Assembly: GCA_018267215.1 (NCBI GenBank)
Contig: JAFDYX010000019.1
Location: 110,333-174,332, forward strand
Source: Bacteroidota bacterium
GTDB lineage: Bacteria; Bacteroidota; Bacteroidia; Cytophagales; Cyclobacteriaceae
Direction of reading: 5' to 3'
DNA length: 64,000 bases
The notes beneath the pieces were generated by a model. That model ran no database searches, had not been told where the DNA came from, and saw only the letters and a list, made by a program, of their open reading frames with translations. The number at the start of each line of letters is the position of its first letter. Position 1 is the stretch's first letter. A program made the translations under genes and the position numbers. Shown here one piece after another: positions 30,814-41,870 of this stretch.

Positions 30814-32007
30814 CTAAGGCGTATTCACTTCGTGAAATCCTTTGCCATCATTATCCGTCCAACTCATCGGGTAGTTTTTATCTAAGTAGGGCAGCGCATC
30901 TTCTGTTAAGTACAAAGGTTTGAAGGTGTCTATCATGACGGCCAGCTCATGTGTTTCTTTGGCGCCAATACTTTTGGCTACGGTGCCGGGGTGCGGGCCG
31001 TGTGGCAGCCCGCCCGGATGCAGCGTAAACGAGCCGCGCTCAATACCTCTGCGGCTCATAAAATTTCCTTCGGCATAGTATAGCACTTCATCGCTGTCTA
31101 TGTTGCTGTGGTTGTACGGAGCAGGGATAGCCAGTGGATGATAGTCGAACAAGCGGGGCACAAACGAGCAGATCACAAAATTGTGCGCCTGAAAAGTTTG
31201 GTGTACGGGCGGTGGCTGGTGGATGCGGCCTGTAATCGGCTCGAAGTCGTGAATGGAAAAAGCATAAGGCCACAAAAAACCGTCCCACCCGATGAGGTCG
31301 AGCGGAGAGTGTTCGTACATGTAGTGATGCAACGCACCTTGCTTTTTTATTTTGATCAGGTATTCTCCCTTTTTGGTTTCGGTAATCAGTTGATGGGGCG
31401 GACGGATGTCGCGCTCGCAGTAGGGCGAGTGTTCGAGCAATTGCCCCAACTCATTGCGGTAGCGCTTCACGGTTTCTACGGGCGATGCCGATTCAACTAT
31501 CAGCAATCGCAGCGGGCCTGCTTCAAAATCGAGTTTGTAAATAACCGTGCGGGGTATTACCACATAATCTCCCTGCCGGATGTCTAACGTGCCAAACTGT
31601 GAGGTAAGTTTCCCGCTTCCATCGTGAACGTAGATGACTTCATCGCCTTCGGCATTTTTATAGAAATAATCCATCGTCCGTTTTTTAGGCGAGCAGATAG
31701 AGAGCGCACAATCGTTGTTGACGAGCAAAGTTTTGCGGGCGCTGAGGTAATCTTCTCCTGTTTCTTGCACCTTCGATGTGTTGAGGTGTGTCTGTAAGAG
31801 CTTGTATTCGGCCACCCGTTTCACCGAAAAATTTTCGATTGCCTGCACGGCCTTGATGCGTGTGGGCGGAAAAATGTGGTAGAGGTTAGAATAAATTCCC
31901 GAAAACCCCTCTGAACTGACAAGTTCCTCTTCGTAGAGGCTGCCATCGGGCTGACGGAACTGGGTGTGGCGTTTGTGGGGGATTTGCCCCAGACGGTGGT
32001 AATACAT
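30814..32007 (-). CDS. hmgA: Homogentisate 1,2-dioxygenase
   Basis: A 397-residue cupin-fold dioxygenase, somewhat shorter than the roughly 430 residues of proteobacterial and animal enzymes but normal for Bacteroidota. Recognisable segments include YYHRLGQIPHKRHTQFR at the N-terminus, the metal-site region LHPGGLPHGPHPGT and KETHELAVMIDTF, whose His and Glu residues bind Fe(II). It opens the ring of homogentisate in tyrosine and phenylalanine degradation. No other pathway gene is adjacent. Confidence 0.9.
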   Translation of the reverse strand: MYYHRLGQIPHKRHTQFRQPDGSLYEEELVSSEGFSGIYSNLYHIFPPTRIKAVQAIENFSVKRVAEYKLLQTHLNTSKVQETGEDYLSARKTLLVNNDCALSICSPKKRTMDYFYKNAEGDEVIYVHDGSGKLTSQFGTLDIRQGDYVVIPRTVIYKLDFEAGPLRLLIVESASPVETVKRYRNELGQLLEHSPYCERDIRPPHQLITETKKGEYLIKIKKQGALHHYMYEHSPLDLIGWDGFLWPYAFSIHDFEPITGRIHQPPPVHQTFQAHNFVICSFVPRLFDYHPLAIPAPYNHSNIDSDEVLYYAEGNFMSRRGIERGSFTLHPGGLPHGPHPGTVAKSIGAKETHELAVMIDTFKPLYLTEDALPYLDKNYPMSWTDNDGKGFHEVNTP

Positions 32008-32154: not shown

Positions 32155-34374
32155 ATGAAAAATACCGAAGAAATCCAACGAAAGGGTAAGTTAATAGACT
32201 CACTGCCGGCCGTTACTTTTGAATATTCTTTTTTTGTCAGCGGCATACGCGATTTTGTTTATATCAGCCCGCGTTGCGAAAAAATGTTTGGCCTCACCCA
32301 GACTGAAATACTGAGCGGGGAACTGTCCATGCAATCGTATATTCATCCGCAAGATTGGCCTCGCTTCCGAATCAGCATTATCGAAAAATCAAAAAATTTT
32401 GACCATTCCGACTGGCGGTGGGAAGGAAGAGTTAAAGTCCCACAGGGATATTTGTGGATAGAGGCCATTGCTTCGGGCGAAGTATTAAACGATGGCACCA
32501 TTACCTGGGTAGGTATCATTCACGATATCGGCCATCGTAAGCAGGTAGAACAAAGACAATGCGAAATGGAACAGCGACTGGAGTTGGCGCTGAAGGGTGC
32601 TGATCTGGGCTTGTGGGATTATAACTACCAGACAAACGAAACAGAACTCAATAAGCAGTGGTCTAAAATACTGGGGTATGACCACGAGGAGTTGCTGGGG
32701 ATGCAAAAAACTTACGAAGATTTTATCCACCCTGATGACCTGCACGAATATACCCGGATTATGACAACCCATCGCTTATCTAAAAGCGACTCGTTCTCTT
32801 GTGCCTACCGGTTTAAGATAAAAAACGGAGCGTGGCGTTGGGTGTTGGAAAAAGGACAGATAGTAGAACGCGATACACAGGGAAACCCCATCCGATCAGT
32901 CGGTATTATACAAGATTTTGAAGAACATAAAATTAAAGAAAAAGCCGTACAGGAAAGTGAAGAGCGATACCGGCAGTTGGTAGATCATATACCCATGGGC
33001 GTAAGCATATTGCAAGATGGTAAAGTTAAATACATCAATAAGTATGGTATAAACTTGTTGGCAGATGGGCAAACCGATGAGGTGCTGGGCAAACCTTTTA
33101 TGCGTTTTATCGCACCTGAAAATGAACAACTAACCACCGAGCGGGTAGCCCGTGTATTGGCAGGAGAAGAAGTTTCTGCCATCGAGCAAATATTTGTGTG
33201 CCTGAATGGGCAGCACCGGATAGTGGAAGCCCTGGCCATGCCGTTTCGATACGGAGGCAAGCCGGCAGTACAGTCCATTTTTAGAGATGTTACAGATCAA
33301 AAAAAGGCTGAAACAGAAAAACGAAAATCTGAAACTTTATTCTCCCAACTGTTTCACGTTTCGCCCATGGCTATTGCCATGCTGGACGACCAAGGCAAAG
33401 TACAGCAGGTAAATGAAGGCTTTGAAGCGATGTTTGGCTATAGTAGCACCGACCTTCAGGGAAAATCGCTCAATGAATTTATTGTGCCCGAAAATCTGGA
33501 GTCGGAGGGCAACGACCTCAATACGCTTATTTCCTCACAACAAGTGGTGCGTATAGAAACCGTACGGCTTCACCGCGATGGGCATATACTTTCGGTCATT
33601 ATTTATGGAATGCCTATTATGATAGAGGGTGTAGCCATCGGCATTTTTGGTGTGTATGTGGATATTACCGAACAGAAAAAAACAGAAGAAGAACTAAAAA
33701 CCCGCAATGCCGAGTTAGATAATTTTGTGTACAAAGTTTCGCACGATTTGCGCGCCCCGCTTTCGTCTGTACGCGGATTGGTGAACTTGGCAAAGTTGCC
33801 AGAAAATAAAGACGACCCGGCCGAATACTTAACCATGATAGGCCGGAAAGTAGATCAGCTCGATCATTTTATTACCGATGTGCTGAGCCACTCTAAAAAC
33901 CTGAAAATGGATCTGCGCATCGAGCCGATAGATTTTAAAAACCTGATTGACCAGACATTTACCGATCTGAACTACCTGAAAGGCGCAGACGAAATCATGC
34001 GCAGCCTCACAATTGAGGGAGAAACATTTATGAGCGACCGCTGGCGGATAGGCGAAATTTTCAGGAACCTCATCTCCAACGCCATTAAATACCGCAACTT
34101 CCGCAAGCCCGATCCTGAAATCATTATTGAAATTCGGGTTACCGAAAAAATGGCATTCATTAAATTTTCAGATAATGGCATTGGCATACAACCCGAAAGC
34201 ATGGAAAAAATATTTCACATGTTTTATCGTGCCAGCGAGCAATCAGATGGCTCGGGGCTGGGCTTGTATATTGTAAAAAATGCTGTAGAAAAACTGGGTG
34301 GCCACTTGGACGTAAAAAGTACGTATGGCGAAGGCACTACATTTACTTTTGAGTTACCCAACCGATCAGTATAA
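32155..34374 (+). CDS. Multi-PAS sensor histidine kinase
   Basis: A 739-residue soluble kinase with four PAS/PAC-type modules (about 15-125, 140-265, 270-385 and 395-510; WVGIIHD, WVLEKG and GVYVDITEQKK mark PAC ends), then DHp with KVSHDLRAPLSSVRGL (phospho-His near 531), and HATPase motifs FRNLISNAIKY, DNGIGI and GSGLGLYIV. There is no receiver domain or membrane helix, so it senses cytoplasmic signals. The next start codon is 4 bp after its stop, so it is co-transcribed with the GNAT-like gene. Confidence 0.88.
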   Translation: MKNTEEIQRKGKLIDSLPAVTFEYSFFVSGIRDFVYISPRCEKMFGLTQTEILSGELSMQSYIHPQDWPRFRISIIEKSKNFDHSDWRWEGRVKVPQGYLWIEAIASGEVLNDGTITWVGIIHDIGHRKQVEQRQCEMEQRLELALKGADLGLWDYNYQTNETELNKQWSKILGYDHEELLGMQKTYEDFIHPDDLHEYTRIMTTHRLSKSDSFSCAYRFKIKNGAWRWVLEKGQIVERDTQGNPIRSVGIIQDFEEHKIKEKAVQESEERYRQLVDHIPMGVSILQDGKVKYINKYGINLLADGQTDEVLGKPFMRFIAPENEQLTTERVARVLAGEEVSAIEQIFVCLNGQHRIVEALAMPFRYGGKPAVQSIFRDVTDQKKAETEKRKSETLFSQLFHVSPMAIAMLDDQGKVQQVNEGFEAMFGYSSTDLQGKSLNEFIVPENLESEGNDLNTLISSQQVVRIETVRLHRDGHILSVIIYGMPIMIEGVAIGIFGVYVDITEQKKTEEELKTRNAELDNFVYKVSHDLRAPLSSVRGLVNLAKLPENKDDPAEYLTMIGRKVDQLDHFITDVLSHSKNLKMDLRIEPIDFKNLIDQTFTDLNYLKGADEIMRSLTIEGETFMSDRWRIGEIFRNLISNAIKYRNFRKPDPEIIIEIRVTEKMAFIKFSDNGIGIQPESMEKIFHMFYRASEQSDGSGLGLYIVKNAVEKLGGHLDVKSTYGEGTTFTFELPNRSV

Positions 34375-34378
34375 CCTC

Positions 34379-35548
34379 ATGCTCATCCGCGAAGTAACTT
34401 CGGCCAAAGAACAAGAAGAGTTTTTACGTCTCCCGCTCAAACTTTACAAAGAGTTTCCAAAATGGATTCGCCCATTGGACAAGGACATTGAATTGTTTTT
34501 CGATCCGGAGAAAAACAAAGCTTTCCGAACCGGTGAGTGCACACGCTGGGTTTTGCAAAACGAGTCGGGCGAAACCATTGGCCGGGTGGCTGCCTTTTAC
34601 GATAAAAAGCACGCTACTAAAGGAAACGACCAGCCTACCGGAGGCATCGGCTTGTTTGAGTGCATCCCCAGCCGCGAAGCTGCCTTCATGCTTTTCGATC
34701 AGTGCAAACAATGGCTGCAAAGCAAAGGCATGGAGGCTATGGATGGCCCGGTTAATTTCGGCAACCGCGACCGATGGTGGGGGTTGCTCACCGAAGGATA
34801 CGACTTAGAACCTAACTACCAGTGCAATTATAACCCGCCCTACTATAAAGATTTTTTTGAAGCCTATGGATTTCAGGTTTACTTCTATCAGCTTACGTTC
34901 GGAAGAAAAATTGCCGGCAAGCTGGAAGAAAAAATGTATCATAAAGCAGGCCTGATCGCCAAAGACCCTGACTACAAAATTGATTTTTTAAGAAAAAAAG
35001 ATTGGCACAAATTACCTTTTCAAATACGCACCGTCTATAATCAGGCGTGGGCTAACCGGGGAGAAATACCCGAGATGACCGAACTGCAGGCCCATGTTAT
35101 TGTCAAGCAAATGAAGCCCATCATGGATGAAACCTTGATTTGGTTTGTGTATTATAAAAATGAGCCGGTGGCTTTCTTGCTGGCATTGCCCGAAGTGAAT
35201 CAATTATTCAAGCACCTGAATGGAAAATTGAATTTATTCGGCAAGCTTAATTTTTTATGGCACACGTTGCTAAAAACAAATAATAAAGCATTTGGTGTAT
35301 TGTTTGGTGTAGTGCCAGCTCATCAGGGTAAAGGTGTAGATGGCGCTATCATTGAAGCGTTCCAGCAGTATCAATTAAAAAAAAACAAACACTATGTGGA
35401 TTTTGAATTGAACTGGATTGCCGACTTCAATACAAAAATGATCCGGGTGTGTGAGCAGATCAACTCCGTGGTTGTAAAAAGGCACGCTACCTATCGCAAG
35501 TTGTTTGACGAGACCAAGCCCTTCAACCGCTTTCCGATTAAACATTAG
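34379..35548 (+). CDS. GNAT-fold N-acetyltransferase-like protein
   Basis: 389 residues from the ATG at 34379. The longer frame begins inside the kinase gene and is less likely. The N-terminal FLRLPLKLYKEFPKWIRPLD and the later 'GVVPAHQGKGVDGAIIEAFQ' (acetyl-CoA binding R/Q-x-x-G-x-G/A-like loop) identify a GNAT-type protein of the larger, duplicated kind. The substrate is unknown. It converges on the YbdK-type gene with only 3 bp between stops. A functional link with the amidoligase cluster is possible only by proximity. Confidence 0.75.
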   Translation: MLIREVTSAKEQEEFLRLPLKLYKEFPKWIRPLDKDIELFFDPEKNKAFRTGECTRWVLQNESGETIGRVAAFYDKKHATKGNDQPTGGIGLFECIPSREAAFMLFDQCKQWLQSKGMEAMDGPVNFGNRDRWWGLLTEGYDLEPNYQCNYNPPYYKDFFEAYGFQVYFYQLTFGRKIAGKLEEKMYHKAGLIAKDPDYKIDFLRKKDWHKLPFQIRTVYNQAWANRGEIPEMTELQAHVIVKQMKPIMDETLIWFVYYKNEPVAFLLALPEVNQLFKHLNGKLNLFGKLNFLWHTLLKTNNKAFGVLFGVVPAHQGKGVDGAIIEAFQQYQLKKNKHYVDFELNWIADFNTKMIRVCEQINSVVVKRHATYRKLFDETKPFNRFPIKH

Positions 35549-35551
35549 CTG

Positions 35552-36649
35552 TCAGAGATCCTGCATCGTTTGCTCAGTAATGTAATCCACTACTTTTGCC
35601 ATGCTGTTGGTGGCGGCAAAAACTTTAAGTTGACGGTCGGCTCCGGTGCCGTGTTCCAAAATTTTATTTACCTGCTGGATGGCATGCCGGCTGCCGAGGT
35701 CATCTACCACATCATCAATGAAGTCGAGCAACTCATAGATGAGCGAACGGGTATCTACTTCTTTTTCTTTGCCGAAGTCAATAAGTGTTCCATCTAACCC
35801 ATACCGTGAGGCGCGCCATTTATTTTCATTGATTAACGCACGGCTGTAGTTGATGAAGCTCATGTTTTGCAAACGCAGTTTGTAGAGCTTGGCCACCAGC
35901 GCCTGAAAGAGAGCCGCAATGGCAATCGTTTCATCTACTAACAAAGGCACATCGCAAATGCGAAATTCGATGGTATCAAAAAACGGATGGACGCGCACAT
36001 CCCACCAGATTTTTTTGGCGTTGTCTATGCACCGGGTTTTAATCAGCAGGTTGATATAGTTTTTAAAATCATCCCACCCGTTGTGGCTGTCGGGTATGCC
36101 CGTGCGTGGAAATTTGTCGAACACTTTGGTGCGAAAAGATTTGAAGCCTGTGTTGCGTCCTTCCCAAAAAGGTGAGTTGGTGGAGAGCGCAAACACATGG
36201 GGTAAAAAATAGCGCACAGTGTTCATGATGTGGATAGCCATGTTTTTGTCGGCTATACCCACGTGTACGTGCAATCCGAAAATTAAATTAGAGCGAGCTG
36301 CTTCCTGCATTTCGTTGACGATTTCATCGTAACGCGGATTGGGGGTGATCAGTTGGGTGCTCCAATGCGAAAAGGGGTGCGTACCTGCTGCTCCTATTTT
36401 TAAGTTTAGGCTTCCGGCCACCTCGCCCACAAATTTGCGCAGACGGGCTATGTCGTGGCGGGCTTCATCTACATGGCGGCAAATGCCGGTGCCTACTTCT
36501 ACCACCGCCTGGTGCATTTCGGCTTTCACCTGATCTTTCAACACCTGCGAAGCAATCTCCACAATTTTCTGGTCGTGCGATTTTAACTCCCGCGTAACGG
36601 GGTCTATCACCATATACTCTTCTTCTATGCCGAGGGTAAATTTTTCCAT
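35552..36649 (-). CDS. Carboxylate-amine ligase (YbdK/GCS2 family)
   Basis: A 365-residue member of the glutamate-cysteine ligase type 2 family (COG2170), glutamine-synthetase-like fold. Signature segments: GIEEEYMVIDP near the start, GAAGTHPFSHW, HVHVGI near residue 126, and the substrate-binding HPFFDTIEFRICD. E. coli YbdK has weak glutamate-cysteine ligase activity; most relatives have unknown substrates. On the minus strand it lies downstream of the ATP-grasp gene, separated by a 305-bp tandem repeat. Confidence 0.9.
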   Translation of the reverse strand: MEKFTLGIEEEYMVIDPVTRELKSHDQKIVEIASQVLKDQVKAEMHQAVVEVGTGICRHVDEARHDIARLRKFVGEVAGSLNLKIGAAGTHPFSHWSTQLITPNPRYDEIVNEMQEAARSNLIFGLHVHVGIADKNMAIHIMNTVRYFLPHVFALSTNSPFWEGRNTGFKSFRTKVFDKFPRTGIPDSHNGWDDFKNYINLLIKTRCIDNAKKIWWDVRVHPFFDTIEFRICDVPLLVDETIAIAALFQALVAKLYKLRLQNMSFINYSRALINENKWRASRYGLDGTLIDFGKEKEVDTRSLIYELLDFIDDVVDDLGSRHAIQQVNKILEHGTGADRQLKVFAATNSMAKVVDYITEQTMQDL

Positions 36650-36660
36650 ATCAAATTATT

Positions 36661-36955
36661 TCGCGCTAAGACACTGTAGTTTATTAATCAGCAATTTATT
36701 CTTCATCATATTTTCTTTGCGCTCTCTGCACCTTTGCGCGAGTTGTTTATCTCGCTAAGACGCCAAGACACTAAGCAGTAATATCTGAATTTCATTTTCT
36801 ATCATATTTTTCTTTGCGTTCTCTGCGCCTTTGCGCGAGTTGTTTTTCTCGCTAAGACGCCAAGACGCTAAGTAGTGATATCTGAACTTCATTTTCTATC
36901 ATATTTTTCTTTGCGCTCTCTGCGCCTTTGCGCGAGATAATTTCTCACTAAGACC
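36661..36955. repeat. Tandem repeat, 97-bp unit, about three copies
   Basis: The phrase TCTTTGCG-TCTCTGC-CCTTTGCGCGAG recurs at 36714, 36811 and 36908, an exact period of 97 bp. Each unit also has CTCGCTAAGACGCCAAGAC followed by an AT-rich stretch. GCGCGAG and CTCGC form a hairpin in each unit. Copies differ by only a few bases. It fills the entire gap between two genes of one functional group. Confidence 0.9.
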
Positions 36956-37938
36956 TATTCTTTCTTTTTCGTTTTGGGGGCTGTGGCTTTTACTTCTGTA
37001 GCAATCGAATTTTTTACGAAAGATCCCCACGTTAAATTGTCTTTGCCGGGTTGCTGTGCCTTGGCTCGTTCAATGGCCATCTTGGCTGCGTGCTCCACTA
37101 CCCAATCAAAATTTTCCTGCCCTACTGAGTTGACATCTGCATCGGGTGCCGGATTGCAAAAGTCTATGGCATACGGTACGCCATCGCGCACGGCCATTTC
37201 TACCGTATTGAAATCATACCCCAGTGCATTGCATAAATCGAGTACATAGTCGTGCACTTGCTTAACGAGTTTAGCCGATGCAGGCGGCCCATTTACTACA
37301 TAACGCAAATGGTGCGGGTTACGCGGCTCGTACTGCATTACGCGCACATACTTTCGCCCCAAACAATAGCACCGGAAATATTCCGTGAAAACAATTTCTT
37401 CCTGCAGCATCATCACCAGTTGGCCTGTTTCTTTGTAGGCATTGAAAAAATCACTTGCCTGATTGAGTTTATATACGCTTTTCCATCCACCACCGGCATG
37501 GGGTTTCATGTAGGCAGGCCAGCCGATGTATTCAAAAATCTTTTCCCAGCTCAGCGGAAATTTCAAATTGCTGAAAGACGAGTTCTGCGTGTCGGTAGGC
37601 TTTTCGTGCGAAGGCAAGATCACTGTTTTAGGAACGGGCACACCTAACTTCACGGCCAGCGCGTTGTTAAAAAATTTTTCATCGGCACTCCACCAAAACG
37701 GGTTGTTGATGACGGCCGTGCCACTGATGGCGGCATTTTTTAAATAGGCACGATAAAAGGGTACGTCTTGCGAAATCCGGTCGATGATGACCGCAAAGCC
37801 ATCCCCCACGCCTTGTTGTACCATGTCTATGCTGACGGGCTCAGCCTGAATATCTTTCAACCCTTTTTTATTTATTTCTTCAATAAAAGCTTCGGGAAAT
37901 GAGCGCTCCATGCCGTATAGAATTCCGATTCGTTTCAT
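36955..37938 (-). CDS. ATP-grasp ligase
   Basis: A 327-residue ATP-grasp protein of the RimK/D-Ala-D-Ala-ligase type. Visible motifs: YIGWPAYMKPHAGGGWKSV (ATP-binding Lys and glycine loop), LQEEIVFTEYFRCYCLGRKY, and the Mg-binding VEMAVRDGVPYAIDFCNPAPD (Glu, Asp and Asn ligands). Such enzymes join a carboxylate to an amine via an acyl-phosphate. The lysine-rich tail is probably disordered. Its neighbours are another amidoligase and two alpha/beta hydrolases. Confidence 0.88.
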   Translation of the reverse strand: MKRIGILYGMERSFPEAFIEEINKKGLKDIQAEPVSIDMVQQGVGDGFAVIIDRISQDVPFYRAYLKNAAISGTAVINNPFWWSADEKFFNNALAVKLGVPVPKTVILPSHEKPTDTQNSSFSNLKFPLSWEKIFEYIGWPAYMKPHAGGGWKSVYKLNQASDFFNAYKETGQLVMMLQEEIVFTEYFRCYCLGRKYVRVMQYEPRNPHHLRYVVNGPPASAKLVKQVHDYVLDLCNALGYDFNTVEMAVRDGVPYAIDFCNPAPDADVNSVGQENFDWVVEHAAKMAIERAKAQQPGKDNLTWGSFVKNSIATEVKATAPKTKKKE

Positions 37939-37965
37939 AAGTTGATGTTTAAATGGTTTTGAATA

Positions 37966-38676
37966 TTACTTGATAAGAGAAAGATAATGCGGGAACATCT
38001 CACGCCAAGCGGGCCAGTCGTGCGGAGCATTATGGCGCACATCAAGCCAACGGTGGATTCCTTTTGCATCTAAGATATTGGCCATTTTTACGTTGGCATC
38101 CCAGCACATATCATGGGTGCCGGTGCCCAGTACAACAAATAGGTCGTGAAAAAAATCGCTGTGGGCGCTGGGGATAAAATCGGGAGGATTATTGAAATAC
38201 ACGTTGTCATCATAGTAGCCATCTAACTGATCTTTGATGTCGAAGGAAGCGCCCATATTAAAAATATATTTCACCACTTCCGGATGACGAAATCCAAAGT
38301 TGGTGGCATGATAGCCGCCAAAGCTGCAACCGGCCGTAGCCACACGGCTGACACCCGTCTCACGCTGGGCGAGGGGCACCAACTCGTGCAGCAACATCTG
38401 GTCGTACCAAATATGGTTCTTTATCCGATCTGCCGGATGAATAGATTTATTGTACCAGCTGGTAGAATCAATTCCATCCGGACAATAAATTTTTACCAGC
38501 CCTTCGTCTAAAAACCAAGCTACGCTGTCAATCAGTTTGAAATCTTTATTTTCATAATAGCGTCCCATGGAGGTGGGAAACAAAATGACAGGGTAGCCGC
38601 GGTGGCCAAAAGCCAACACATTTATTTCGCGACTAAGGTTGGGCGAATACCAACGGTGAAGATGTTCGTGGGGCAT
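37966..38676 (-). CDS. Alpha/beta-hydrolase fold esterase (esterase D-like)
   Basis: A 236-residue hydrolase. The nucleophile elbow GCSFGGYHA (G-x-S-x-G-G) is near residue 117; a late Asp and the C-terminal RHNAPHDWPAWREMFPHYL include the probable catalytic His. It resembles the Esterase (PF00756) family that includes esterase D and enterochelin esterases. No signal peptide, so cytoplasmic. It lies 27 bp upstream of the ATP-grasp gene and is divergent from the second esterase gene. Confidence 0.85.
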   Translation of the reverse strand: MPHEHLHRWYSPNLSREINVLAFGHRGYPVILFPTSMGRYYENKDFKLIDSVAWFLDEGLVKIYCPDGIDSTSWYNKSIHPADRIKNHIWYDQMLLHELVPLAQRETGVSRVATAGCSFGGYHATNFGFRHPEVVKYIFNMGASFDIKDQLDGYYDDNVYFNNPPDFIPSAHSDFFHDLFVVLGTGTHDMCWDANVKMANILDAKGIHRWLDVRHNAPHDWPAWREMFPHYLSLIK

Positions 38677-38709
38677 AAGAAGGTGACCGGTGAAAATGAA
38701 TCGTTTTGT

Positions 38710-38717
38710 TATTTTTG
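38710..38717 (+). promoter_or_regulatory. -7 box TATTTTTG before the second esterase gene
   Basis: An exact TAnnTTTG match in the 72-bp gap between the two divergent esterase genes. Predicted transcript start near 38722. Confidence 0.4.
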
Positions 38718-38748
38718 CTCCCTTTAAATTTGGAGAATTAATATCACT

Positions 38749-39582
38749 TTGCCAACTGTGGAGAAAGATACGAACGAAGACATTTATACCGAAGAAAAAA
38801 TTACAGGAGTTTTTTCAAAGCTTCTTCAGCGTGAAGTGGACGTAACTATCCTGATGCCTGCCGAAAAGAAAGGGCAAGTTTATCCTTTGCTATTGTTGAA
38901 TGACGGACAAGATTTGGAAAAACTAAAAGTAAAAGAAACCATAGAGCAGCTAACGGCCGAAGGCATCATCCATAAAATAATTGTAGCGGCTGTAACCGCA
39001 GGCGATCGGATGCAGGAATATGGTGTGGCTGCCAGACGCGATTACCTGAAACGGGGGAGCCGGGCGCGAGCTTATACAAAATATATCGTTAGTGAATTAA
39101 TCCCTTACCTCACGTACCGATACCCGGTTGACCCACACAGTCGCCATACCATTGCCGGCTGCTCCATGGGCGGGCTCAGTGCGCTGGATATAGCCTGGCA
39201 CCACGCAGCCTTGTTTTCAAAAGTGGGCGCTTTCAGCGGCTCATTTTGGTGGCGCAAGCGCGACAGCAAAAGCCGCCTCTATTCTGATACCCGCGACCGG
39301 ATCATGCACCAGCAAATCCGCTCAGGCAGAAAAAAAGCAGATATGAAATTTTGGTTTGAAGCCGGCACCGAAGACGAAAAAAGCGACCGCAACAAAAACG
39401 GGATCATTGACTCCATAGACGATACGCTTGACTTGGTGGCAGAACTTACCAAGAAAGGGTACAGGCCATTTCATGACATTCAGTACCTGGAAGTGAAAGA
39501 CGGCCATCACAACATAGAAACCTGGGCAGCAGCCATGCCCGCATTTTTAACATGGGCATTTGAAAAATCATCCATACAATGA
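38749..39582 (+). CDS. Second alpha/beta-hydrolase esterase (enterochelin-esterase-like)
   Basis: A 277-residue hydrolase of the same PF00756 family: GCSMGGLSALDIAWHH holds the nucleophile Ser near residue 141; an acidic insertion follows (EDEKSDRNKNGIIDSIDDT, resembling a calcium-loop); the His is in KDGHHNIETWA near residue 257. Start is uncertain: TTG at 38749 or GTG at 38758, both after GGAG at 38732. The HAD gene overlaps its stop by 4 bp. Two different esterases beside two amidoligases hint at a shared substrate. Confidence 0.85.
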   Translation: MPTVEKDTNEDIYTEEKITGVFSKLLQREVDVTILMPAEKKGQVYPLLLLNDGQDLEKLKVKETIEQLTAEGIIHKIIVAAVTAGDRMQEYGVAARRDYLKRGSRARAYTKYIVSELIPYLTYRYPVDPHSRHTIAGCSMGGLSALDIAWHHAALFSKVGAFSGSFWWRKRDSKSRLYSDTRDRIMHQQIRSGRKKADMKFWFEAGTEDEKSDRNKNGIIDSIDDTLDLVAELTKKGYRPFHDIQYLEVKDGHHNIETWAAAMPAFLTWAFEKSSIQ

Positions 39583-40273: not shown

Positions 40274-40279
40274 TTGAAG

Positions 40280-40990
40280 ATGAAAACTGTTCTACATAAA
40301 GCAAACACTCGTGGCCATGCCAACCACGGGTGGCTTGACAGCCACCACACCTTTAGTTTCGCTAATTATTATGACCCTGCCCGTATGCATTTTGGTGTAC
40401 TGCGCGTACTAAACGATGACGTAGTGGAAGGGGGCATGGGCTTTGGCTCTCACCCGCATGATAATATGGAAATTATTTCTATTCCGTTACAGGGCGATCT
40501 GGAGCATCGCGACAGTATGGGCAATGGAACGATAATCAAACAAAATGACGTGCAGATCATGAGTGCCGGCACAGGCATACACCATTCTGAGTTCAACAAA
40601 AACAAAGACCAAAAAGTAAGCTTTTTGCAAATCTGGGTTTTCCCCAAACAACGCAACACCACACCTTACTACGATCAAAAAACATTTGATCCGCGACAGC
40701 GCGAAAATAAATTACAACTAATTGTTTCAAATGAAACCCATGGAGAAGGTGTGAGGATCAACCAGGATGCCAAATTTTATCTGGGCAACTTGGCGAAAGG
40801 GTTTCAAACAGAATATAAAGTGAGCCGGCCACAAAACGGAGTGTATTTTTTTGTGATAGAAGGCGAAGTGTCGGTCAATGGCAAAACCCTGAACAAGCGC
40901 GATGGGTATGGTGTGTGGGACGTTGATCAACTCACCATTGAAGCAAATCGCCCTACCGAATTATTGTTGATGGATGTACCGATGAATTAA
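40280..40990 (+). CDS. Pirin family protein 1
   Basis: 236 residues from the ATG at 40280; a TTG two codons upstream is less likely. It is a bicupin pirin. Metal-site histidines are visible in GSHPHDNMEII, LEHRDSMGN and GTGIHHSEFN. Pirins bind Fe(II); some have quercetin-dioxygenase activity, others regulate transcription or enzymes. A second pirin follows after 10 bp, and a palindrome lies just before this start. Confidence 0.9.
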   Translation: MKTVLHKANTRGHANHGWLDSHHTFSFANYYDPARMHFGVLRVLNDDVVEGGMGFGSHPHDNMEIISIPLQGDLEHRDSMGNGTIIKQNDVQIMSAGTGIHHSEFNKNKDQKVSFLQIWVFPKQRNTTPYYDQKTFDPRQRENKLQLIVSNETHGEGVRINQDAKFYLGNLAKGFQTEYKVSRPQNGVYFFVIEGEVSVNGKTLNKRDGYGVWDVDQLTIEANRPTELLLMDVPMN

Positions 40991-41000
40991 ATTACAAGTT

Positions 41001-41870
41001 ATGAAGAACAGATCCGTTGCCCGATTGCTCTATGCGCATCAGATGGATATGGGCGGTATGCCCATTCGTCAGCCATTGCCTACCCAGCAGGTAGAACAGA
41101 TTGATCCTTTTCTTCTGTTGCATCATGCCAATATTAAAGTACCCACCCACATCAACCCCGACCATGCCGGAGTGGGCCCGCATCCGCACCGTGGGTTTTC
41201 GCCTGTTACATTTATTTTTCAGGGCGGTGTGCACCACCGCGACAGCCGGGGGCACGACAGCGTAGTGTATGCAGGCGGAGCCCAGTGGATGAATGCCGGC
41301 ATGGGCATGATCCACAGCGAGCGCCCTCCGCAAGACATCCATGAAAAAGGTGGAAGGCAAGAGATCATCCAGTTGTGGATTAACACACCACAAAAAAATA
41401 AAATGGATCAACCTGCTTACTTTGCCGTGCAAGCAGAAGAAGTTCCTACTACTACAAGCGATGACAGGAAAGTAACCGTCAATGTTTTTTCAGGAGACTT
41501 GGTGGGGTTGCATGGACTAGTGCCCTCGCAGACGATTGTCAATGCGGCTACGCTCAGCCTTGTTAAGGACGGAAAAATATCTGTTCCGCTGCCACCACAC
41601 CACAATGCATTTATTTATTTGCTGGATGGCGAACTGAACATCGAGGGATATGGGCTGGCAGAAGCACTACACTTGGTTCATTTTAAAAATGATGGCGATG
41701 GCATTTCGTTCAGTGCCCGAAAAGATACCCGCGTTTTATTGCTGAGCGGTGAGCCCTTGAACGAAAAGGTAGTATCGTATGGCCCTTTCGTGATGAACAA
41801 TCAAACACAAATTATGGAAGCTATGCGCGATTACCAGATGGGAAAGATGGGCGTACTCATTGAAGAGTGA
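41001..41870 (+). CDS. Pirin family protein 2
   Basis: A 289-residue pirin, longer than its upstream neighbour and clearly different in sequence. Metal-site segments: GPHPHRGFSPVTFIFQGG (His-x-His), VHHRDSRGHDS and GMGMIHSERPP. C-terminal cupin with LLLSGEPLNEKVVSYGPFVM is typical of the YhhW/YhaK-type pirins. Being tandem with pirin 1 it probably arose by an old duplication or by recruitment, and they share one transcript. Confidence 0.9.
   Translation: MKNRSVARLLYAHQMDMGGMPIRQPLPTQQVEQIDPFLLLHHANIKVPTHINPDHAGVGPHPHRGFSPVTFIFQGGVHHRDSRGHDSVVYAGGAQWMNAGMGMIHSERPPQDIHEKGGRQEIIQLWINTPQKNKMDQPAYFAVQAEEVPTTTSDDRKVTVNVFSGDLVGLHGLVPSQTIVNAATLSLVKDGKISVPLPPHHNAFIYLLDGELNIEGYGLAEALHLVHFKNDGDGISFSARKDTRVLLLSGEPLNEKVVSYGPFVMNNQTQIMEAMRDYQMGKMGVLIEE

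Follow-up and report, generated by a model that had tools for sequence, protein, structure and literature searches.

A ligase and esterase locus of a Bacteroidota bacterium as the probable front half of a conserved amide-forming gene set

We analyzed a 64,000-nucleotide stretch of DNA from a Bacteroidota bacterium of the Cyclobacteriaceae (assembly GCA_018267215.1, contig JAFDYX010000019.1, positions 110,333 to 174,332 of the forward strand; hereafter the window), in which a serine hydrolase (Est1), a putative ATP-grasp ligase (ATPg) and a YbdK-type carboxylate-amine ligase (YbdK) are consecutive on the minus strand (Table 1). A second serine hydrolase (Est2) is divergent, its start lying 72 base pairs (bp) from that of Est1. 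An earlier note, made from the sequence of this locus alone, had described a YbdK-type ligase, an ATP-grasp ligase, two esterases and a HAD-family hydrolase, and all of these open reading frames (ORFs) were found in place. The first four of these were taken there as the whole set, which proved too narrow, as a class-I glutamine amidotransferase-type protein (GAT) and a further ligase (LIG2), both encoded outside the window, belong to it too. We consider it probable that the window carries the front half of a set conserved in Bacteroidota, Est1-ATPg-YbdK-GAT-LIG2, often accompanied by Est2, whose successive ligations build a small peptide-like conjugate, with the hydrolases serving to cleave or recycle it.

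Families of the ligases and hydrolases

The YbdK protein passes the curated cut-offs of the GCS2 family, with 212.6 against 21 bits for PF04107, 543.4 against 371 bits for NF010039 and 305.3 against 176.4 bits for TIGR02050, which bears out its earlier description as a YbdK-type ligase. It is 29% identical to E. coli YbdK, and E9, E11, H127, E228 and R230 are common to both proteins. The window ATPg matched no Pfam family at E ≤ 0.001; its scores for LysX_arch (28.6 bits) and rimK_fam (28.5 bits) were far under the cut-offs, that of the RimK family (TIGR00768) being 143.4 bits, and it also missed the cut-offs of the R2K clade (PF18299, PF14243), with 14.9 against 26.2 bits for R2K_2. Among the 23 members of the ATPg family, which show 64% mean column identity, 17 matched R2K_2 at E ≤ 1 (best E 1.3e-4), and D259-F260-x-N262 was invariant in all 23 at the place where RimK carries ExN. 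PMC4431377 describes a similar displacement by one residue (ExGD), and this for R2K.3 only. Since ATPg stays under the R2K cut-offs, the DFxN/ExGD likeness was treated as a lead and not as R2K membership. Judged by the residues in common and by matches that all lie below cut-off, the earlier designation of ATPg as an ATP-grasp ligase is in all likelihood right.

As the earlier note had it, the two hydrolases are different PF00756-type esterases (cut-off 22 bits), in both cases by score and by an invariant Ser-Asp-His set. The assignment is secure for Est2 (111.5 bits; S139, D209 and H254 invariant in 17 sequences) and just above the cut-off for Est1 (23.6 bits; S118, D189 and H219 invariant in 19 sequences). 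The catalytic role of these residues, and of those of GAT given below, is assigned by family. Residues 213-225 of Est2 resemble an EF-hand loop (DRNxNGxIDSxDD), most of which is conserved in Est2 relatives, and calcium binding by it would be a guess. In one relative (L045), two esterase units occupy a single frame of 550 amino acids. In some relatives, Est1 and ATPg are separated by an alpha/beta hydrolase gene, which a family scan showed to be proline-iminopeptidase-like in L036 (7730-8653); similar genes stand there in L006, L007, L026, L028, L030 and L032.

Conservation of the row and its separated second half

Neighbour order was determined in 80 named loci, the best of at least 585 stretches that matched the ATPg alignment in a scan of named genomes; ATPg is present in them by construction and some of the contigs are short. 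By their names, 79 of the loci are Bacteroidota, and the remaining one is titled only 'uncultured bacterium'. The order was scored with profiles of six families, partly trained on the same loci, and profile matches below 80 bits or more than 8 kilobases (kb) from ATPg were left out. Est1>ATPg>YbdK>GAT>LIG2 stood in this order on a single strand in 55 of the 80 loci, with median gaps of 48, 87, 45 and 23 bp; 28 of these rows have a divergent Est2, 26 are without it, and one has a doubled GAT. For Est1>ATPg>YbdK, the part found in the window, the count was 61, in 30 cases with Est2 divergent. ATPg and YbdK were adjacent in this order on a single strand in 71 loci, Est1 lay upstream of ATPg in 66, and a divergent Est2 was found within 8 kb of ATPg in 44. 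The earlier note had named a lack of conservation of the genes as neighbours as the result that would count against it, and the opposite was observed. At least two amide ligases of different folds are thus placed in one conserved row, as predicted for multi-amidoligase pathways. By the names of the genomes, the row order is kept across Cytophagales, Sphingobacteriales, Chitinophagales, Saprospirales and Flavobacteriales.

The genome searches covered Bacteroidota, and a plasmid search with ATPg gave no match. The co-occurrence across relatives that the earlier note had proposed as a check was assessed by counting strong matches in 146 genomes. ATPg was present in 73, LIG2 in 71 (all within the 73), GAT in 71, YbdK in 68 and Est1 in 70; all five families were present in 61 relatives, none in 70 and part of them in 15. 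Six of the 15 partial genomes are less than 90% complete (G013, G020, G044, G049, G051 and G054), and G120 has a weak Est1 match only. These counts leave out weak matches of ATPg (G111, G140), of LIG2 (G079, G102, G110, G125) and of GAT (G102), a GAT fragment (G044), a YbdK match treated as a paralogue (G076, E 2e-69), and Est1 in 20 genomes with only matches weaker than E 1e-80, while fragmented GAT genes in G023, G051 and G056 were scored as present. In a phylum sample of 395 Bacteroidota genomes, ATPg was found in 134 and LIG2 in 114 (both in 110, ATPg only in 24, LIG2 only in 4, neither in 257), with ATPg in G192 and G357 and LIG2 in G192 dropped.

GAT and LIG2 have no copy in the window and lie intact on contig C6 of the same genome as a pair with a 4-bp overlap. 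GAT passes the PF00117 cut-off of the class-I glutamine amidotransferase superfamily (40.9 against 22.8 bits), and the class-I triad C108, H211 and E213 is invariant in 23 of 23 sequences. Since it also scores 26.1 bits for the homoserine O-succinyltransferase fold (cut-off 27 bits), GAT could be an amidase or an acyltransferase. LIG2 (about 397 amino acids) appears from its sequence to be a second, divergent ATP-grasp-like ligase; weak matches among 23 members were to GSP_synth (9), ATPgrasp_ST (7) and CP_ATPgrasp_1 (3), and a profile comparison of ATPg with LIG2 detected no relatedness (probability 0.3%). LIG2 is linked to a sodium:solute symporter in three loci of one genus: both share one frame of 867 amino acids in L153 (4637-7240), the symporter of L154 (4002-6636) is divided between two overlapping frames, the second of which also contains LIG2, and symporter and LIG2 follow in successive frames in L155 (4273-6950). 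The single frame in L153 fits a small-molecule substrate.

In the unsplit relatives L054, L057 and L059, a PrmC-like methyltransferase gene and RibD (names checked with Pfam) come after LIG2. In five genomes, that of the window, G052, G045, G001 and G032, GAT-LIG2 still adjoins these two genes, away from Est1-ATPg-YbdK. The two halves lie on one contig in G052 (about 23 kb apart) and G045 (about 38 kb) and on different contigs in the other three genomes. Because GAT-LIG2 has kept the neighbours that it has in unsplit relatives, the break in the row appears to lie between YbdK and GAT. A single rearrangement in the ancestor of the sub-clade, after which every member was retained, would explain this most simply.

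A second version of the set and the flanking genes

In L158, L160, L161 and L170, a protein of 452-474 amino acids is encoded between ATPg and GAT, at the place of YbdK. These four circularly-permuted-ATP-grasp-like (CP-ATP-grasp-like) proteins show 54-62% identity to that of L158. The cut-off of CP_ATPgrasp (PF14403, 32 bits) is passed by the L158 protein (37.3 bits) and marginally by that of L170 (32.5 bits), which also passes PF04174, while those of L160 and L161 are under the cut-offs of the CP_ATPgrasp models. A profile of the four proteins, built from G158, G256, G325 and G364, which match it by construction, was run on 80 genomes, among them 56 of the 114 LIG2 genomes. The protein was found in 16 of the 24 genomes with ATPg and without LIG2 and in none of the 56 LIG2 genomes; with the founders excluded, the counts were 12 of 20 and 0 of 56 (Fisher 4e-9, shared ancestry ignored). 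All 16 genes adjoin ATPg, overlapping it by up to 35 bp or standing up to 341 bp away, and no YbdK was seen in those of the loci that were examined for it. Since the kinship of LIG2 with the CP-ATP-grasp-like protein is weak (profile comparison, probability 2%), it is by presence, absence and position that this protein is taken to replace LIG2 in other branches of the phylum. ATPg, GAT and the esterases look like a common core to which further ligation is supplied in two ways.

HAD overlaps Est2 by 4 bp, in keeping with the coupling proposed earlier, but it adjoins Est2 in only 5 of the 80 named loci and in the window. The converging GNAT-like gene was correctly placed by the earlier note, with 3 bp between its stop and that of YbdK; its GNAT match, however, is below cut-off (20.7 bits for PF00583), and the only loci where it adjoins YbdK are that of the window genome and three of the same genus (L001, L005, L006, L007). 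Its position is the one held by GAT-LIG2 in unsplit relatives. Both genes were rejected as core members on these neighbour counts, for which many same-genus loci are too short to show either gene, and HAD is regarded as a clade-level neighbour.

The gap of 305 bp between ATPg and YbdK consists mostly of a tandem repeat, whose 15-base core has 6 matches in the genome (at most one mismatch) at two places, this gap and contig C21. A hidden gene in the gap was rejected, as no ORF longer than 45 amino acids is present there. Farther out, a homogentisate-dioxygenase-like protein is encoded at 30814-32007 (PF20510 52.9 bits, far below the hmgA equivalog cut-off with 64.4 against 510.75), and two consecutive pirin-like genes, clustered as one family, lie downstream of HAD at 40274-41870, the first of them passing the Pirin cut-off.

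Table 1. Features of the locus, with positions in the window
Feature	Position	Strand	Basis
YbdK-type carboxylate-amine ligase (GCS2 family), 365 amino acids	35552..36649	-	PF04107, NF010039
ATPg, probable RimK/LysX/R2K-like ATP-grasp ligase, 327 amino acids	36955..37938	-	LysX/RimK and R2K_2 matches below cut-off
Est1, PF00756-type serine hydrolase, 236 amino acids	37966..38676	-	PF00756
Est2, divergent PF00756-type serine hydrolase, 277 amino acids	38749..39582	+	PF00756
HAD-family hydrolase, 205 amino acids	39579..40196	+	PF00702 60.1 bits; not core
Convergent GNAT-like gene, 407 amino acids (longest start)	34325..35548	+	PF00583 14.6 bits; not core
97-bp tandem repeat, 2.7 copies	36693..36954		Tandem Repeats Finder; in the ATPg-YbdK gap

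Interpretation and relation to known systems

There is good support for these genes acting together in one amide-forming pathway. YbdK would couple an amine-bearing partner to a carboxylate, which its family suggests to be glutamate, and ATPg and LIG2 would attach further units by ATP-driven ligation. GAT would cleave a glutamyl-type amide or act as a Cys-dependent acyltransferase, and Est1 and Est2 would hydrolyse ester or acyl adducts. The conjugate may contain a glutamyl unit and be capped with an amine, and GAT and the serine hydrolases would cleave or transfer parts of it. Most likely, this conjugate is small, peptide-like and cytosolic, and is built and recycled by one set. Of the amide-linked small molecule proposed in the earlier note, the amide-forming pathway stands; a small-molecule product, as opposed to a modified protein, is what we infer. 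The trimming or release of the product by the esterases, which had also been suggested, found no support.

Several observations weigh against this interpretation. LIG2 of the window genome matches no family at E ≤ 0.01 and none above cut-off, and all co-occurrence counts ignore shared ancestry. Among the relatives, G090, G109, G124 and G138, which belong to one family, have ATPg, GAT, LIG2 and Est1 without YbdK, a strong GAT accompanied by no ATPg, LIG2 or YbdK occurs in the near-complete genomes G110 and G125, and G113 is without GAT. In the phylum sample, 8 of the 24 genomes with ATPg and without LIG2 are also without the CP-ATP-grasp-like protein, seven of them having distant ATPg relatives only (209-349 bits) and G520 a full ATPg (466 bits).

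We further considered whether the genes are independent housekeeping genes and neighbours by accident. The ATPg, GAT and LIG2 genes of G090, G109 and G138 are scattered, as such a reading would have it, but the order kept in 55 of the 80 named loci, the near all-or-none co-occurrence in the 146 relatives and its persistence in genomes with a scattered or split row led us to reject chance neighbourhood, which is barely credible. A more specific form of the preferred pathway is a glutathionylspermidine-like route, in which a gamma-glutamyl dipeptide made by YbdK would be lengthened by ATPg and capped with a polyamine by LIG2, while GAT would take off the glutamyl or amine part. It is suggested by the GSP_synth matches among the LIG2 members (best E 9.4e-4) and by the best PDB profile match of LIG2, YgiC (E 0.033), which is annotated as a peptide--spermidine ligase in E. 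coli K-12. However, LIG2 matches glutathionylspermidine synthase, YgiC and YjfC only weakly and always under cut-off (13.8 bits for L153 and 16.2 bits for L155 against 29.3 bits for PF03738), and its profile comparison with YgiC/YjfC/Gss reached a probability of 14.5%; we consider this specific route unlikely.

Protein modification by ATPg is suggested by its weak matches to RimK/LysX and R2K profiles and by the proposal that R2K enzymes are protein modifiers (PMC4431377). ATPg would then add residues to a protein as RimK does, YbdK and LIG2 would extend the tag, and GAT and the esterases would remove it. No recurrent target-protein gene was found among the neighbour clusters, however, the identity between ATPg and E. 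coli RimK is about 20%, and the frame shared by LIG2 and the symporter points to a small substrate; this reading, too, seems unlikely. The same frame and the presence of a ligase and a class-I amidotransferase-type protein within one row would fit a catabolic route in which an imported amine is glutamylated by YbdK, processed and released by GAT. The putrescine Puu route is the model for such gamma-glutamylation-based catabolism, yet fewer than three ligases are needed for it, and none of the recurrent partners in the clusters examined could be recognised as an oxidase, an aminotransferase or a dehydrogenase; we therefore give it little credence. Very improbable, finally, is the making or use of a glutathione-like low-molecular-weight thiol with Est2 as an acyl-thiol hydrolase. 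A C-terminal DinB-superfamily domain is fused to Est2 in two genomes of one genus (L041, 9963-11525; L048, 10083-11600), and Est2 weakly matches S-formylglutathione hydrolase (TIGR02821, 29.6 against 281.7 bits), both of which point in this direction. BshC, the last bacillithiol enzyme, is nevertheless present in 141 of the 146 relatives, including the window genome, irrespective of the set, and this nearly general occurrence weakens a primary-thiol pathway because the primary thiol is already provided.

The gene order kept across taxonomic orders, the split without loss and the ligase swap between branches together resemble the behaviour of a cofactor or housekeeping pathway. We put forward, tentatively and as a rather unlikely extension, that about one third of the sampled Bacteroidota have an unnamed small-molecule pathway that makes and recycles a peptide-amine conjugate serving as a general cofactor-like metabolite, with an ATPg-GAT-esterase core and, exchangeably, YbdK plus LIG2 or one CP-ATP-grasp-like ligase. 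No description or product of the five-gene set was found in the titles and abstract openings that the literature searches gave, which is weak evidence of absence. The full five-gene set, beyond the three genes in the window, is a concrete target for metabolomics and enzyme assays.

The likeness of the window YbdK to E. coli YbdK, a putative glutamate--cysteine ligase 2, consists in GCS2 family membership and the invariant residues; E. coli K-12 differs in that no ATP-grasp, GAT or esterase neighbour occurs within the 8 kb examined. For ATPg, the RimK/LysX and R2K ligases are the best matches, all of them below cut-off, from which it is set apart by its low identity to RimK and by DFxN in place of ExN. 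The window genome contains a second GCS2 ligase (L002, 23-2703, contig C22) that overlaps an RLAN-RimK ATP-grasp ligase by 4 bp. There, too, a GCS2 ligase adjoins an ATP-grasp ligase, but these belong to distinct subfamilies, being 23% identical to YbdK and 21% identical to ATPg of the window, and form a separate ligase pair. Multi-amidoligase gene neighbourhoods with hydrolases were reportedly predicted by comparative genomics by Iyer et al. in 2009. The present set resembles such predicted neighbourhoods in having GCS2 and ATP-grasp folds beside hydrolases and in the logic of successive amide ligation. Operonic linkage of distinct ligases is cited for many instances in PMC4431377. What the present analysis adds to the predicted neighbourhoods is the split of the row, the near all-or-none pattern of co-occurrence and the alternative version with a CP-ATP-grasp-like protein.

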